A DNA stretch of 64,000 nt from Synergistota bacterium (lineage in GTDB: Bacteria > Synergistota > GBS-1): positions 62,001 to 126,000 of the forward strand of contig JANXBX010000004.1 of NCBI GenBank assembly GCA_025060595.1. The letters run 5' to 3'. Shown here piece by piece: positions 26,986 to 44,287 of this stretch. The first letter of the stretch is position 1. Each line of letters opens with the position of its first letter. The notes under the pieces are model-generated. The model was not told the DNA's origin and made no database searches. It saw only the letters and a program-made list of their open reading frames with translations. A program made the position numbers and the translations under genes.

Positions 26986-28686
26986 ATGAAACTGGGGTAT
27001 ATTCACTTAACTTTGCATGGTCATGTGCCATTCGTATTAAATCATGGCACCTGGCCACATGGTGAAGTCTGGCTACAGGAAATAGTGTGGGAAACATATA
27101 TTCCATTGCTTGAACTCTTACACGAATATAGGGTTTCAAAACTACCAATTAAATTAACCTTGAATCTATCTCCAATATTGCTTGAGCAGATTTCAAACCA
27201 GCGCTTTATTAAAAACTTTGAAGACTATATTAACGAACAAATTAAATATGCTAAACGAGAGGAAGAAGAATACAGGACTAGGGAGCCTATAAGATCAAAC
27301 CTTGCCAAATATTGGATATCAATTTACGAGAAAAGAAAACAATTCTTTGAAAACCTTGATGGAATAGTTAGCTCTTTTAAAAAATTTGCTGAGGATGGGC
27401 TTATAGAAATTATATCTTGTGCTGCTACTCACGGATATCTCCCCCTCTTAGGATACGATGAATGCGTAGAATCACAAGTTAAGATTGGATTAATGACCTC
27501 AAGGAAACACTTCAGTGGACTTGATATCAAAGGATTTTGGCTTCCAGAGTGCGCTTACAGATCTTCGTATAAATGGACAAATCCGATTACAGGAGAAACC
27601 CTCTTCAGAAAGGGACTAGAGATTATACTTTATGATAATAGAATAACATTCTCTTACACTGATTATCATCTACTTGTTGGCCAGGAAAAGGTAGGGATAG
27701 TGGAATCTCCTTACGAAAGCAAATCATGGGATAGCTTAGAAAAGAGAGAAAAGATATGCAAAGCTGATCAAGATTATAAAAAACTTATACCATTAAAGCC
27801 ATACTACTGTATCTCTCCAGGTTATGAAAAGGGAATCGTATTCTTAATAAGAGATCCAATCGGCACTTCAAGAGTATGGAGTAGAGATATGGGATTTCCT
27901 GGAAACGGTAGATATCTTGAATTTCATAAGAGAGCTTTTCCAGGAGGACACAGATTCTGGAGAGTAACAGACAAAAAGCTCGGATTGGGAGCAAAGGAAT
28001 TCTACGAACCATTAAAAGCGTTAGAAGCTATAAACGAACATGCAACACTATTTGTTAATATGCTCCAAGATAGAAGTAAAGAAGCTCTTCTGAATTTCAA
28101 TCTTAGGCCGCTTTTCGTTGAAGTCTTTGATGCGGAACTTTTTGGACACTGGTGGCACGAGGGAATATTATGGTTAAAAGAGGTTTTTAAACTCATAAAC
28201 TTAAACGGCTTAATAGAACCGCTATTTGGTAGAGAAATTTTAGAAATATACGAAAAGATAGAAATAACTCACTTGTGGGAAGGATCATGGGGAGCAGGAG
28301 GAGATCATAGAATATGGCTTAACGAGGAAACAAAATGGATGTGGAACAAGATATATGAATGTGAGAAAAAAATGATAGATGAGCTTTCACCTATGGAGCC
28401 CAAAAATGACATTCATCTCTTAGCTCTAAACCAAGCAGCTAAAGAATTACTTCTACTTGAAGCATCCGATTGGGAATTCTTATATACAACTTGGCAAGCG
28501 CGCGACTATGCAGAGCAAAGGTTTCAGAGACACTACAGCAATTTTATAAAGACGTATGAGTTAGCTAAAGCTTTAAATAAAGGAATACATCCTGAGGAAG
28601 GAAAGATAGAAGAAATCATGAGAATAGCAAGAGATGATGATATTTTCGAGGGGGTGGATTATAAGCTCTGGAGAAAGAAGAAGTAA
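26986..28686 (+). CDS. GH57 1,4-alpha-glucan branching enzyme (DUF1957 type)
   Basis: A glycogen branching enzyme of the GH57/DUF1957 class, 566 aa from ATG 26986, which follows GAGGTG; the frame extends six codons further up. It has YIHLTLHGHVPFV at the N-terminus, the nucleophile Glu in GFWLPECAYR (about E188) and the acid Asp in EVFDAELFGHWWHEG (about D382). A C-terminal helical DUF1957 region contains LLLEASDWEFLYTT. It introduces alpha-1,6 branches into GlgA product. It directly precedes glgA and the genes overlap or abut at TAATA. Confidence 0.94.
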   Translation: MKLGYIHLTLHGHVPFVLNHGTWPHGEVWLQEIVWETYIPLLELLHEYRVSKLPIKLTLNLSPILLEQISNQRFIKNFEDYINEQIKYAKREEEEYRTREPIRSNLAKYWISIYEKRKQFFENLDGIVSSFKKFAEDGLIEIISCAATHGYLPLLGYDECVESQVKIGLMTSRKHFSGLDIKGFWLPECAYRSSYKWTNPITGETLFRKGLEIILYDNRITFSYTDYHLLVGQEKVGIVESPYESKSWDSLEKREKICKADQDYKKLIPLKPYYCISPGYEKGIVFLIRDPIGTSRVWSRDMGFPGNGRYLEFHKRAFPGGHRFWRVTDKKLGLGAKEFYEPLKALEAINEHATLFVNMLQDRSKEALLNFNLRPLFVEVFDAELFGHWWHEGILWLKEVFKLINLNGLIEPLFGREILEIYEKIEITHLWEGSWGAGGDHRIWLNEETKWMWNKIYECEKKMIDELSPMEPKNDIHLLALNQAAKELLLLEASDWEFLYTTWQARDYAEQRFQRHYSNFIKTYELAKALNKGIHPEEGKIEEIMRIARDDDIFEGVDYKLWRKKK

Positions 28687-30134
28687 TAAGAGTACTAAAT
28701 ATATGCTCAGAAGTTCATCCCTTAAATAAAGTGGGAGGCTTGGGAGATGTAGCTTTTGAGCTTCCTCAGGTATTGAACAAAACCAAAAAGGTAGTATCCT
28801 CAGTAATTGTACCGTTAAATAAACTTGCTATAGAAAATCTTGAAAAGCTTAACCTTAAAATTCAGTATATGAAAGAGATGTATATTCCTCTTGACTTGAG
28901 ATGCCATAGGCTATCTTTATCTAAGCTTCTATGGGATAAAAACGTTGAGATATTTCTTGTTGGAGGAGATATTATAGAAAAGAGCCCGCCTTATCCCGAG
29001 AAGAACGATCCTTTATACAATTTTGTGTTTCCGCTTTTTGCACTTGGCTGTTTAGAAATCTTAAAGGAAAACTTCTTAGAACAAAGCTATGATCTTATCC
29101 ATGTACACGATTGGCCTGCCTCACTTATACCTATATTTAGTAGCTTTCATAGATATTATAAAGACTTTAAAATACCACCTATAGTATTATCTATACACAA
29201 CATAGCTCACCAAGGAATTTACGAACCTGAAGTTATAGAAAAATGGCATTTGCTTCCTCATTGCTTTAATGTAAGCTATCTTGAATTCTGGGGGAAAATA
29301 AATCTTCTTAAGGGAGGAATTATTCTATCAAGAGCTATAATAACTGTAAGTCCATCTTATGCTGAAGAAATAAAGACCCCCGAGTTTGGTTTCGGACTTG
29401 ATGGAGTAATTAGAGAAAACGCTCAAAAACTCTATGGTATAACAAATGGCATAGATCAAGAAAGATGGGATCCATCAAAGGATAACGCTATACCCTGTAA
29501 ATATGATTACCAAAACCTTGAAGGCAAAAGAAAGTGTAAAGCAAATCTTCTTAAGGAACTTTCTCTTGAAAATGATATCGACAAACCCTTAATAAGCGTA
29601 ATCTCAAGGATCACCTATCAAAAGGGCTTTGATATCCTAATACCAGTTATATCTGAAATACTAAATTTAGGCTGCCAAATGATTGTATTAGGAAGCGGAG
29701 ACCCTTACTTTTCTGAAAAGCTAAGCTTTATCGAAAGGGATTTTAGTTCTTGCTATAAATTCATAAATACTTTCGACGAAACCTTAGCAAGAAAGGTATA
29801 TGCAGCTTCAGATATTCTACTTATGCCATCACTATATGAACCCTGCGGAATATCACAAATGATAGCTTTAAGATACGGAACAATTCCTGTTGCAAGAAAG
29901 GTAGGGGGTTTGAAAGACACAATTAAAGATTTAGAAGAAGATGGTTGGGGGTTTTTGTTCGAAGAATATAGTCCGAGAGCTTTACTCGAGAGTGTAAGAA
30001 AAGCTATAAGTATATACACAAACCAAAAAGAAAAATTTTCCAATGCTATAAAAAAAGCGATGTGCCTTGACTTCTCATGGGAAAGTAAAATTAACTCATA
30101 TTTAGATGTTTATAAAAAAATTTTAAAGAGGTGA
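28686..30134 (+). CDS. glgA: Glycogen synthase (ADP-glucose type) with non-canonical start codon
   Basis: GT5 glycosyltransferase that elongates glycogen from ADP-glucose. The reading frame upstream of the first GTG (28731) is homologous: codons 28686-28730 read (I)RVLNICSEVHPLNK, followed by VGGLGDVAFELPQ. The ADP-glucose-binding KxGGLGD motif therefore needs those codons. In this frame there is no ATG, GTG or TTG between the stop at 28662 and 28731. ATA 28686 occupies the place of the family's Met and overlaps the previous TAA as TAATA; CTG 28668 is the other option. It is about 482 aa. The C-terminal nucleotide site MPSLYEPCGISQM is intact. Confidence 0.9.
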   Translation: MRVLNICSEVHPLNKVGGLGDVAFELPQVLNKTKKVVSSVIVPLNKLAIENLEKLNLKIQYMKEMYIPLDLRCHRLSLSKLLWDKNVEIFLVGGDIIEKSPPYPEKNDPLYNFVFPLFALGCLEILKENFLEQSYDLIHVHDWPASLIPIFSSFHRYYKDFKIPPIVLSIHNIAHQGIYEPEVIEKWHLLPHCFNVSYLEFWGKINLLKGGIILSRAIITVSPSYAEEIKTPEFGFGLDGVIRENAQKLYGITNGIDQERWDPSKDNAIPCKYDYQNLEGKRKCKANLLKELSLENDIDKPLISVISRITYQKGFDILIPVISEILNLGCQMIVLGSGDPYFSEKLSFIERDFSSCYKFINTFDETLARKVYAASDILLMPSLYEPCGISQMIALRYGTIPVARKVGGLKDTIKDLEEDGWGFLFEEYSPRALLESVRKAISIYTNQKEKFSNAIKKAMCLDFSWESKINSYLDVYKKILKR

Positions 30135-42134: not shown

Positions 42135-43409
42135 TCAACACATCTCCTTGAATCTAGAGAATATGTTATCTACCTTTTTAAGAATATCACTGAAGTTAAA
42201 ACATTCTTCTACATCCTCAGGGGTCAAAAAAGATGATACTTCTTTATCAGATAAAAGAAGTTCTCTAAGGCTTTTTCCTTCCTTCCAAACGCTCATTGAT
42301 ATTCTCTGAACAATATCATAAGCCTTATCCCGTGGAAGACCTTTTGAAAGAAGCTTAGTTAAAATCTCACTTGAAAAAACTAATCCTTTAGTAAGCTCAA
42401 GATTTTCTCTCATCCTTTCCACATTAACCTCAAGCCCTTCCAAAATCCTTTTTAAAACATCAAGCATATAGAATAAAACACTTGTAGTTTGAGGAAGAGA
42501 AAACCTCTCAAACGAAGAATGAGATATATCTCTTTCATGCCACAAGGCTATATTTTCAAAAGTAGGAGAAAGGAATCCTCTCAATAAGCGAGAAAGACCA
42601 CATAGCCTTTCACAAAGAATAGGATTTCTTTTATGAGGCATAGCAGAAGACCCTCTCTGCCCCTTATAGAACGGCTCATAGGCTTCACCAACCTCGGTCC
42701 TTTGCAAGTGTCTTATCTCAAGAGCCACTCTTTCACAAAAAGCCCCAAATAGAGCCAAAACAGAAGCTAAAAAAGCATACCTATCACGGGGAATCACTTG
42801 AGTTGAAATAGGCTCCACCTTAAGCCCCAAAACGGTACAAACATATTCTTCCACACGAGGATCAACCATCGAATAAGTACCCACTGCTCCTGAAATTTTT
42901 CCATAAGATATCTCTTCTTCAGCAAGCTCAAGTCTTCTAATATTCCTTAAAAGCTCACTGTAAAAGCTTAAAAGCTTTAATCCAAAAGTTATAGGTTCAG
43001 CGTGAATTCCATGTGTCCTACCTACCTGAAATGTATTTTTAAACTCTAGAGCTCGATTAAATAAAATTTCTCTAAGCTCTGAGGCTTTACGCTTTATTTC
43101 CCTGATAGCTTCCCTCAATAGCAACGCAGTTGCAGTATCTATAATATCAGAAGAAGTTAATCCATAGTGAAGATATGGGGAAAGTTCTTCTCCAATGCTT
43201 TCCTCTACCGACTTTAGAAAAGCTATAACATCATGCCTATAAATTTTTTCAAGCTCCTCTATACGACTTATGTTAAAAGAAGCCCGCTCTCTCATCTTAA
43301 CAGGAACTTCTTGGGGGAAAACACCTATTTTAGACCATCCCTCAACCACCAGAAGCTCTATCTCTAACCACTTATTAAACTTATTCTCTTCAGACCAAAT
43401 TCTCTCCAT
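42135..43409 (-). CDS. purB: Adenylosuccinate lyase
   Basis: Catalyses two purine steps: cleavage of SAICAR and of adenylosuccinate. It is 424 aa with the superfamily signature GSSAMPHKRNPILCERL, HYGLTSSDIIDTA, the catalytic His in GRTHGIHAEPITFG, and an ordinary C-terminal helix. The ATG at 43409 has only a weak ribosome site. It is a housekeeping gene inserted in an otherwise unusual operon; the other pur genes are elsewhere. Confidence 0.97.
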   Translation of the reverse strand: MERIWSEENKFNKWLEIELLVVEGWSKIGVFPQEVPVKMRERASFNISRIEELEKIYRHDVIAFLKSVEESIGEELSPYLHYGLTSSDIIDTATALLLREAIREIKRKASELREILFNRALEFKNTFQVGRTHGIHAEPITFGLKLLSFYSELLRNIRRLELAEEEISYGKISGAVGTYSMVDPRVEEYVCTVLGLKVEPISTQVIPRDRYAFLASVLALFGAFCERVALEIRHLQRTEVGEAYEPFYKGQRGSSAMPHKRNPILCERLCGLSRLLRGFLSPTFENIALWHERDISHSSFERFSLPQTTSVLFYMLDVLKRILEGLEVNVERMRENLELTKGLVFSSEILTKLLSKGLPRDKAYDIVQRISMSVWKEGKSLRELLLSDKEVSSFLTPEDVEECFNFSDILKKVDNIFSRFKEMC

Positions 43410-43429
43410 TTCTGGAAGAAAATACCTTT

Positions 43430-44287
43430 TTATAATCTTAAAACCCTCCCTTCATAAAAACCAAGTTCATCTAAGGTAATTTCATCAGCTAAAAATAAAA
43501 CATCTGGTTTCAAAAAATGGGCTACTTCATCAACTTTTCCCCTAAAGGAAAAAACGTAATCAACGTAATCTATATGTGAGAGAGCTAATGCCATTTCCCT
43601 ATCTCCCCCCACGGCCAGTGCAAGGATATCCACCATTCCTCTTGCTTTCTGAATAAGCTCTATCATTTCTATTATATCTCTTCTTTTGCGAATTACCAAA
43701 ATTCCTTTCGTTTTAGGATTTCCATCTATCAGGCTCTTTAAAGCCCATTTAGTCGTAAATCTGGAGGTAAGTAGAAAAGGTTTTTTCAAATCCTCAAAAT
43801 ACTTTCTTCTTATCTTGTAAAATATGTTATGATACTCTTCGCTTCTGTAATCAGGATAAGTATAATCAAAGGGGATAAATTTCCCCTCTTTAAATCTTAA
43901 GGTAACTTCAGCATATATTCCCTTGTTAAGGTACACCCTATGAGCTTGATCTTTAGTAGTAGCTAAAACAAGCTTCCCCCCTTCTAAATAACCTGGATCA
44001 AGATTTATCCTTCTGTTTTTCCCCTCTATCCTGTTAGTAAGCTGTTTTATTTCTACTATATGCTCAGGAGATATCAAAGGAGTAAAGGAAACAAAAACCC
44101 TCTTTAAGTTGGGACCAATCTCATCCTCGTAGTAATTAGTCCACCTAAATTGTATTTCTTCGCTTTCAAAATCCATCTCTCCAAACTCACTTATAAGGGT
44201 TTCCTTAATTTCCTCAAAAAATTTTCTATCTTTATATAAAATCCCTATAAATAGCTTCACAGGAGAAGGAGGATATTCCTCTCCCAC
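43430..44287 (-). CDS. DUF4416 protein with unrecognised C-terminal extension
   Basis: A 285-aa protein. Residues ~8-180 are DUF4416: VKLFIGILYKDRKFFEEI, FRWTNYYEDEIG, RINLDPGYLEGGKLVLATTKD, and FIPFDYTYPDYRS. DUF4416 is usually a free-standing ~180-aa protein of unknown role in anaerobes and thermophiles. About 100 further residues (from about 190) contain PKTKGILVIRKRRDIIEMI and GGDREMALALSHIDYVDYVF, with an alternating alpha/beta pattern that I do not recognise. The start is GTG at 44287 after AGGAGTG. It follows the Fis-type regulator by six bases. Confidence 0.85.
   Translation of the reverse strand: MGEEYPPSPVKLFIGILYKDRKFFEEIKETLISEFGEMDFESEEIQFRWTNYYEDEIGPNLKRVFVSFTPLISPEHIVEIKQLTNRIEGKNRRINLDPGYLEGGKLVLATTKDQAHRVYLNKGIYAEVTLRFKEGKFIPFDYTYPDYRSEEYHNIFYKIRRKYFEDLKKPFLLTSRFTTKWALKSLIDGNPKTKGILVIRKRRDIIEMIELIQKARGMVDILALAVGGDREMALALSHIDYVDYVFSFRGKVDEVAHFLKPDVLFLADEITLDELGFYEGRVLRL

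Follow-up and report, generated by a model that had tools for sequence, protein, structure and literature searches.

Near-cognate start codons are known in bacteria singly, as in infC and sigR. Non-canonical starts repressed by initiation factor IF3 are established for infC (AUU, AUC) and sigR (GTC) (PMC5472188), AUU, AUC and AUA are among the starts listed for bacteria (PMC4611024), and CUG makes up 0.024% of bacterial starts, with an output in E. coli of 0.86% of that of AUG (PMC11497404). Across 36 genome groups, switches to CUG were counted at 2 of 61,358 AUG, 1 of 5,080 GUG and 1 of 2,468 UUG starts (PMC5622118). The infC start, AUU in E. coli and AUC in Streptomyces, is a conserved near-cognate codon behind a Shine-Dalgarno (SD) site and serves IF3 autoregulation, while the GTC of sigR, conserved in the genus Streptomyces and proven by experiment, belongs to a two-gene unit in which it holds one product below its partner (PMC5472188).

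The glycogen synthase gene glgA in the window (the whole stretch of 64,000 nucleotides of Synergistota DNA analysed here) resembles both systems: it lies in a two-gene unit with a branching-enzyme gene, and a near-cognate codon at SD distance is kept in its relatives. It differs in that infC and sigR are individual genes, the former tied to IF3 itself, whereas in this little-known lineage (the window's genome, G000, with bacterium 42_11 and bacterium GBS-1) the codons in question stand before many unrelated genes (glgA, hisB, queA and purB among them, a dozen or more in all), are often CTG and are proposed from sequence. With the rare bacterial CUG starts the lineage shares the codon and its presumed decoding by fMet-tRNA(CAU), but it appears much denser in CTG than bacteria generally, such starts being proposed in one genome for glgA, hisB, a leuC-like gene, iscU, acpS, hycI and a GntR gene; this density appears unusual. 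The lineage's own infC appears to start with ATT (GGAGGTGATGGAT-ATT-AAG; G000 C5:55386 and C1 of the GBS-1 genome, G003), an ATG there overlapping the SD site. A TAG inside infC in three genomes, considered as a recoded stop, is the natural stop.

The upstream gene of the pair (26986..28686, + strand, from its ATG) encodes a GH57 1,4-alpha-glucan branching enzyme (NF041566/NF041133; Pfam GH57 and BE_C), and its stop, TAA 28684-28686, lies within glgA, so that its 3' end overlaps the glgA 5' end by 19 bases when glgA, an ADP-glucose glycogen synthase gene, is read from CTG 28668 (28668..30134, + strand). The glgA frame is free of stops, and its product carries the KVGGLGD motif, matches TIGR02095 over its full length (455 bits, the curated cut-off being 328; profile positions 1-477) and is the sole full-length GlgA of the window's genome; the gene is most likely intact. 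The frame is opened by TAA 28662-28664, reads *ALEKEEVIRVLNICSEVHPLNKVGGLGDV and continues after the stop with the codons GCT CTG GAG AAA GAA GAA GTA ATA AGA GTA CTA AAT. Its first ATG, GTG or TTG is GTG 28731 (28731..28733, + strand), downstream of the conserved GlgA N-terminus, and the earlier note's account of this absence agrees with the sequence base for base, as do its position for GTG 28731, beyond the Lys of KVGG, and its TAATA overlap, with ATA at 28686-28688, on the branching-enzyme stop. GTG 28731 was rejected as the glgA start, since it sits past that Lys and is unconserved (GTA in 42_11, GTC in GBS-1). Only two codons from the upstream stop to Arg 28689 differ from ATG by a single mismatch, CTG 28668 and ATA 28686.

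Besides the window's genome, the collection has just three from the class, namely bacterium 42_11 (G001), which is of the same genus, G002, and bacterium GBS-1 (G003), which belongs to another genus; those of 42_11 and GBS-1 are both metagenome assemblies, and a full glgA was not found in G002. GlgA identity between the species is 61-63% (61% for GBS-1). The GBS-1 gene likewise lacks any canonical codon before the TTG of HPLNK (HPL-NKVGG), while in other families of the phylum a canonical codon precedes the motif in 25 of 25 scored glgA genes. At the position of CTG 28668 stands TTG in 42_11 and CTG in GBS-1, and at the position of ATA 28686 all three species have ATA; the ATG looked for there in relatives was present in none.

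Of the two codons, CTG 28668 (28668..28670, + strand) is the better supported. An SD site, GAGGGGGTGG (28648..28657, + strand), lies inside the branching-enzyme gene, and its counterparts in the other two species, GGGGTGG and AGGAGGTGG, stand at the same distance from the codon, although the branching-enzyme residues that overlap them differ (E-G-V, T-G-V and Q-E-V). On an SD score calibrated with 295 unambiguous starts of the window's genome, the CTG/TTG site reaches 21.4 in the window, 21.8 in GBS-1 and 15.6 in 42_11 (TTG), against 16, 11 and 9.8 for the ATA site (28686..28688, + strand) in the three species; over internal codons, CTG has a likelihood ratio of about 9-14 (window, GBS-1) and ATA one of 0.3-2. 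The spacing of 13 bases between the GGGGG of the SD site and the CTG is long, the mode being 7-10. A start at the CTG places six residues before I-R-V-L, and phylum members with canonical starts also have extensions of 6-7 residues (e.g. MGLKNS-IRVLH in L012), though some have none. CTG 28668 is made up of the last base of a branching-enzyme Leu codon (Phe in 42_11) and the TG of a conserved Trp codon, and conservation of NTG is weak evidence by itself because its TG is partly fixed by that Trp codon. The conserved SD, the usual N-terminal extension and the exchange of CTG with TTG or ATG elsewhere in the lineage together make CTG 28668 the most likely start.

Initiation at AUA 28686, which the earlier note had preferred, would proceed by termination-reinitiation at the overlapping branching-enzyme stop and is, in our judgement, rather improbable. 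The ATA stands at the position of the family Met in all three species, the four-base overlaps ATAA and ATAG of GBS-1 and 42_11 resemble ATGA coupling, and ATA apparently serves as a start in other lineage genes (MlaE-like, DedA); however, two of its bases are the first two of a stop codon read in the branching-enzyme frame, and its conservation is no evidence of initiation, because ATA is the only Ile codon that can overlap such a stop. Its SD is weak and unconserved, and 42_11 offers a canonical TTG with a better SD 18 bases upstream. The note's proposal of a non-canonical start thus stands, and its choice of codon gives way to CTG 28668. It had also allowed for a read error or for a mutated start in an impaired gene, a reading to which the lack of any canonical start in the window's glgA lends itself, but GBS-1, of another genus and sequenced separately, shows the same lack, and the reading frame is unbroken along the whole length of the family, at the identities given above. 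A sequencing error or recent loss of the start codon is therefore very unlikely. Equally far-fetched is a GlgA fused to the branching enzyme through a -1 ribosomal frameshift where the genes overlap: the glgA frame is indeed -1 to that of the branching enzyme and in the window stays open through the overlap (AGA AAG AAG AAG TAA), but no slippery sequence common to the three species was found, and the conserved SD would be left unexplained.

The reading we consider probable is that GlgA is translated from CUG 28668, as one case of near-cognate start use throughout the lineage, in which CUG, AUU, AUA, AUC and perhaps ACG behind strong SD sites would be inherited as the starts of about 1% of genes. 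The strong SD in the 3' end of the branching-enzyme gene would place the ribosome at the CUG and offset the weak codon-anticodon pairing, and the ordinary initiator tRNA (anticodon CAU) would accept the first-base mispair and insert fMet, giving MEKEEVIRVLN... The overlap of the two genes suggests coupling, and ribosomes that end the branching enzyme a few codons downstream would probably help glgA initiation. A CUG yields less than 1% of the output of AUG in E. coli (PMC11497404), which is a caveat for this start; a weak glgA start may hold the level of synthase below that of the branching enzyme.

For the lineage as a whole, 1.74 Mb of G000 (most of the genome) was compared with 0.87 Mb of GBS-1 (about half), and 42_11 and G002 were checked by pattern search only. 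Stop-to-stop ORFs were paired between G000 and GBS-1 (748 pairs) and screened for a conserved N-terminus lying upstream of the first canonical codon, and the hits were cleared of antisense and rRNA shadow ORFs and of SD sites read as protein. Several unrelated genes have conserved putative near-cognate starts: among the 748 pairs, a near-cognate codon stands behind a strong SD in both genomes for 7 genes and in one genome for a further 3. The 7 are glgA (CTG), hisB (CTG in both; G000 C16:11738 region), queA (ATT in both; G000 C3:123253), a KOW protein gene adjoining map (ATT in both; G000 C7:11762 region), an MlaE-like permease gene (ATA in both; G000 C5:82234), a DedA protein gene (ATA in both) and a GntR regulator gene (ATA and ATC). 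On the strictest positional test, queA, hisB, the KOW gene and the MlaE-like gene have the near-cognate codon at an SD spacing of exactly 10 bases in both genomes, and the pattern searches in 42_11 gave CTG for hisB and ATA for queA. The 3 genes with such a codon in one genome of the pair are iscU (CTG, with ATG in the other genome) and map and moeA (both TTG in G000, CTG in GBS-1); we propose that, at homologous starts, one species can have CUG where another has UUG or AUG. For flagged ORFs that lack a near-cognate codon, the best explanation is a downstream ATG together with an upstream gene that overlaps, and recO and a nucleotidyltransferase gene were set aside as candidates, no convincing SD-placed codon being found in either. 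Gene names other than those matched to profiles are presumptive, being our own reading of the sequences.

Enrichment was tested in 1607 ORFs of G000 by counting, in ORFs without a canonical start, the codons that follow a strong SD at 7-10 bases. CTG occurred 5 times where codon usage predicts 0.13 (about 40-fold; p ~3e-7), and the NUG, AUN and ACG codons together 10 times against 2.7 expected (p ~6e-4). ATA and ATT alone showed no significant enrichment in these ORFs, and the case for them therefore rests on conservation between species. The control, a small sample of 69 ORFs of the phylum, gave 0 hits with about 1.4 expected. A looser scan of G000 returned 33 raw hits, among which are some clear ATG starts. 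The probable starts seen in one genome only are CTG for the leuC-like gene (G000 C3:56868), acpS (C7:84222), hycI (C1:35142) and a second GntR gene (C6:127053), and ATT for uvrC (C5:104549); in a glycyl-radical activase gene and an FtsW-like protein gene (C8:27866 and C4:49208) the sole SD-placed near-cognate codon is ACG, and these two are tentative. The second gene of the window with a proposed near-cognate start is purB (adenylosuccinate lyase; 42135..43436, - strand), in which no canonical start precedes the ATG of PEMERIW and whose ATT (43436-43434) lies 8 bases behind the GGAGG register of its SD site, GAAGGGAGG (43453-43445). When the proposed start is read as Met, the match to the family profile begins at position 1 for purB (TIGR00928) and acpS, and near position 1 for iscU, the leuC-like gene, hycI and the activase gene. 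Start-codon usage in G000 is otherwise marked by frequent UUG (59 of 295 unambiguous starts), and CTG is a rare internal codon (0.46%).

We infer that start-codon discrimination is relaxed in this lineage, and give roughly even chances to the broad reading that CUG, AUU, AUA, AUC and perhaps ACG behind a strong SD are ordinary inherited starts, used by about 1-2% of genes (hisB, queA, purB, uvrC, acpS, iscU and glgA among them) in G000, 42_11 and GBS-1. An alternative would keep the CUG start at glgA and regard the lineage as ordinary, most bacteria being similar and their near-cognate starts hidden by annotation restricted to ATG, GTG and TTG. We consider this unlikely, though misannotation of such starts is documented (PMC5472188) and the control of 69 ORFs is small; against it, switches to CUG amount to 3e-5 to 4e-4 per start in the 36 genome groups, an annotation-based figure (PMC5622118), whereas 2 of about 127 UUG-start genes of the lineage have CUG in the other genome. 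The literature rates rest on annotations that favour canonical codons, and the large excess seen in the lineage therefore needs control genomes treated by the same method.

The translation apparatus offers one lead to a cause of the relaxed discrimination that we propose. The 16S tail shows nothing unusual, and the single initiator tRNA of GBS-1 is of the ordinary kind, with the GGG/CCC stem; the GBS-1 stretches gave no special initiator tRNA, and in G000 the Met tRNAs fall outside the stretches examined. IF3 is intact in the lineage (G000 and GBS-1), and its C-terminal domain has Glu in ..IREFLQEG.. where the solved Thermus and Geobacillus proteins have Arg or Lys, and Trp in ..EGWSI.. where they have Arg. 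The Glu is present in all four genomes of the family, and a phylum-wide pattern comparison of IF3 matched the family only. We take these positions to correspond to Arg116 and Arg168 of E. coli IF3; the two substitutions may underlie relaxed discrimination, as a lead and not as a result.

Gene finders as a rule accept ATG, GTG and TTG only, and conserved genes of this lineage would be annotated as truncated or missed by them. Taken by itself, glgA would be another case of a known type of start, and it is the lineage-wide set that makes the matter worth pursuing. If CUG, AUU and AUA are indeed ordinary starts here, the lineage would be a natural setting in which to test how the stringency of start-codon selection depends on IF3, initiator tRNA and SD strength together, and whether protein ratios within operons, such as that of branching enzyme to glycogen synthase, are tuned by weak starts.
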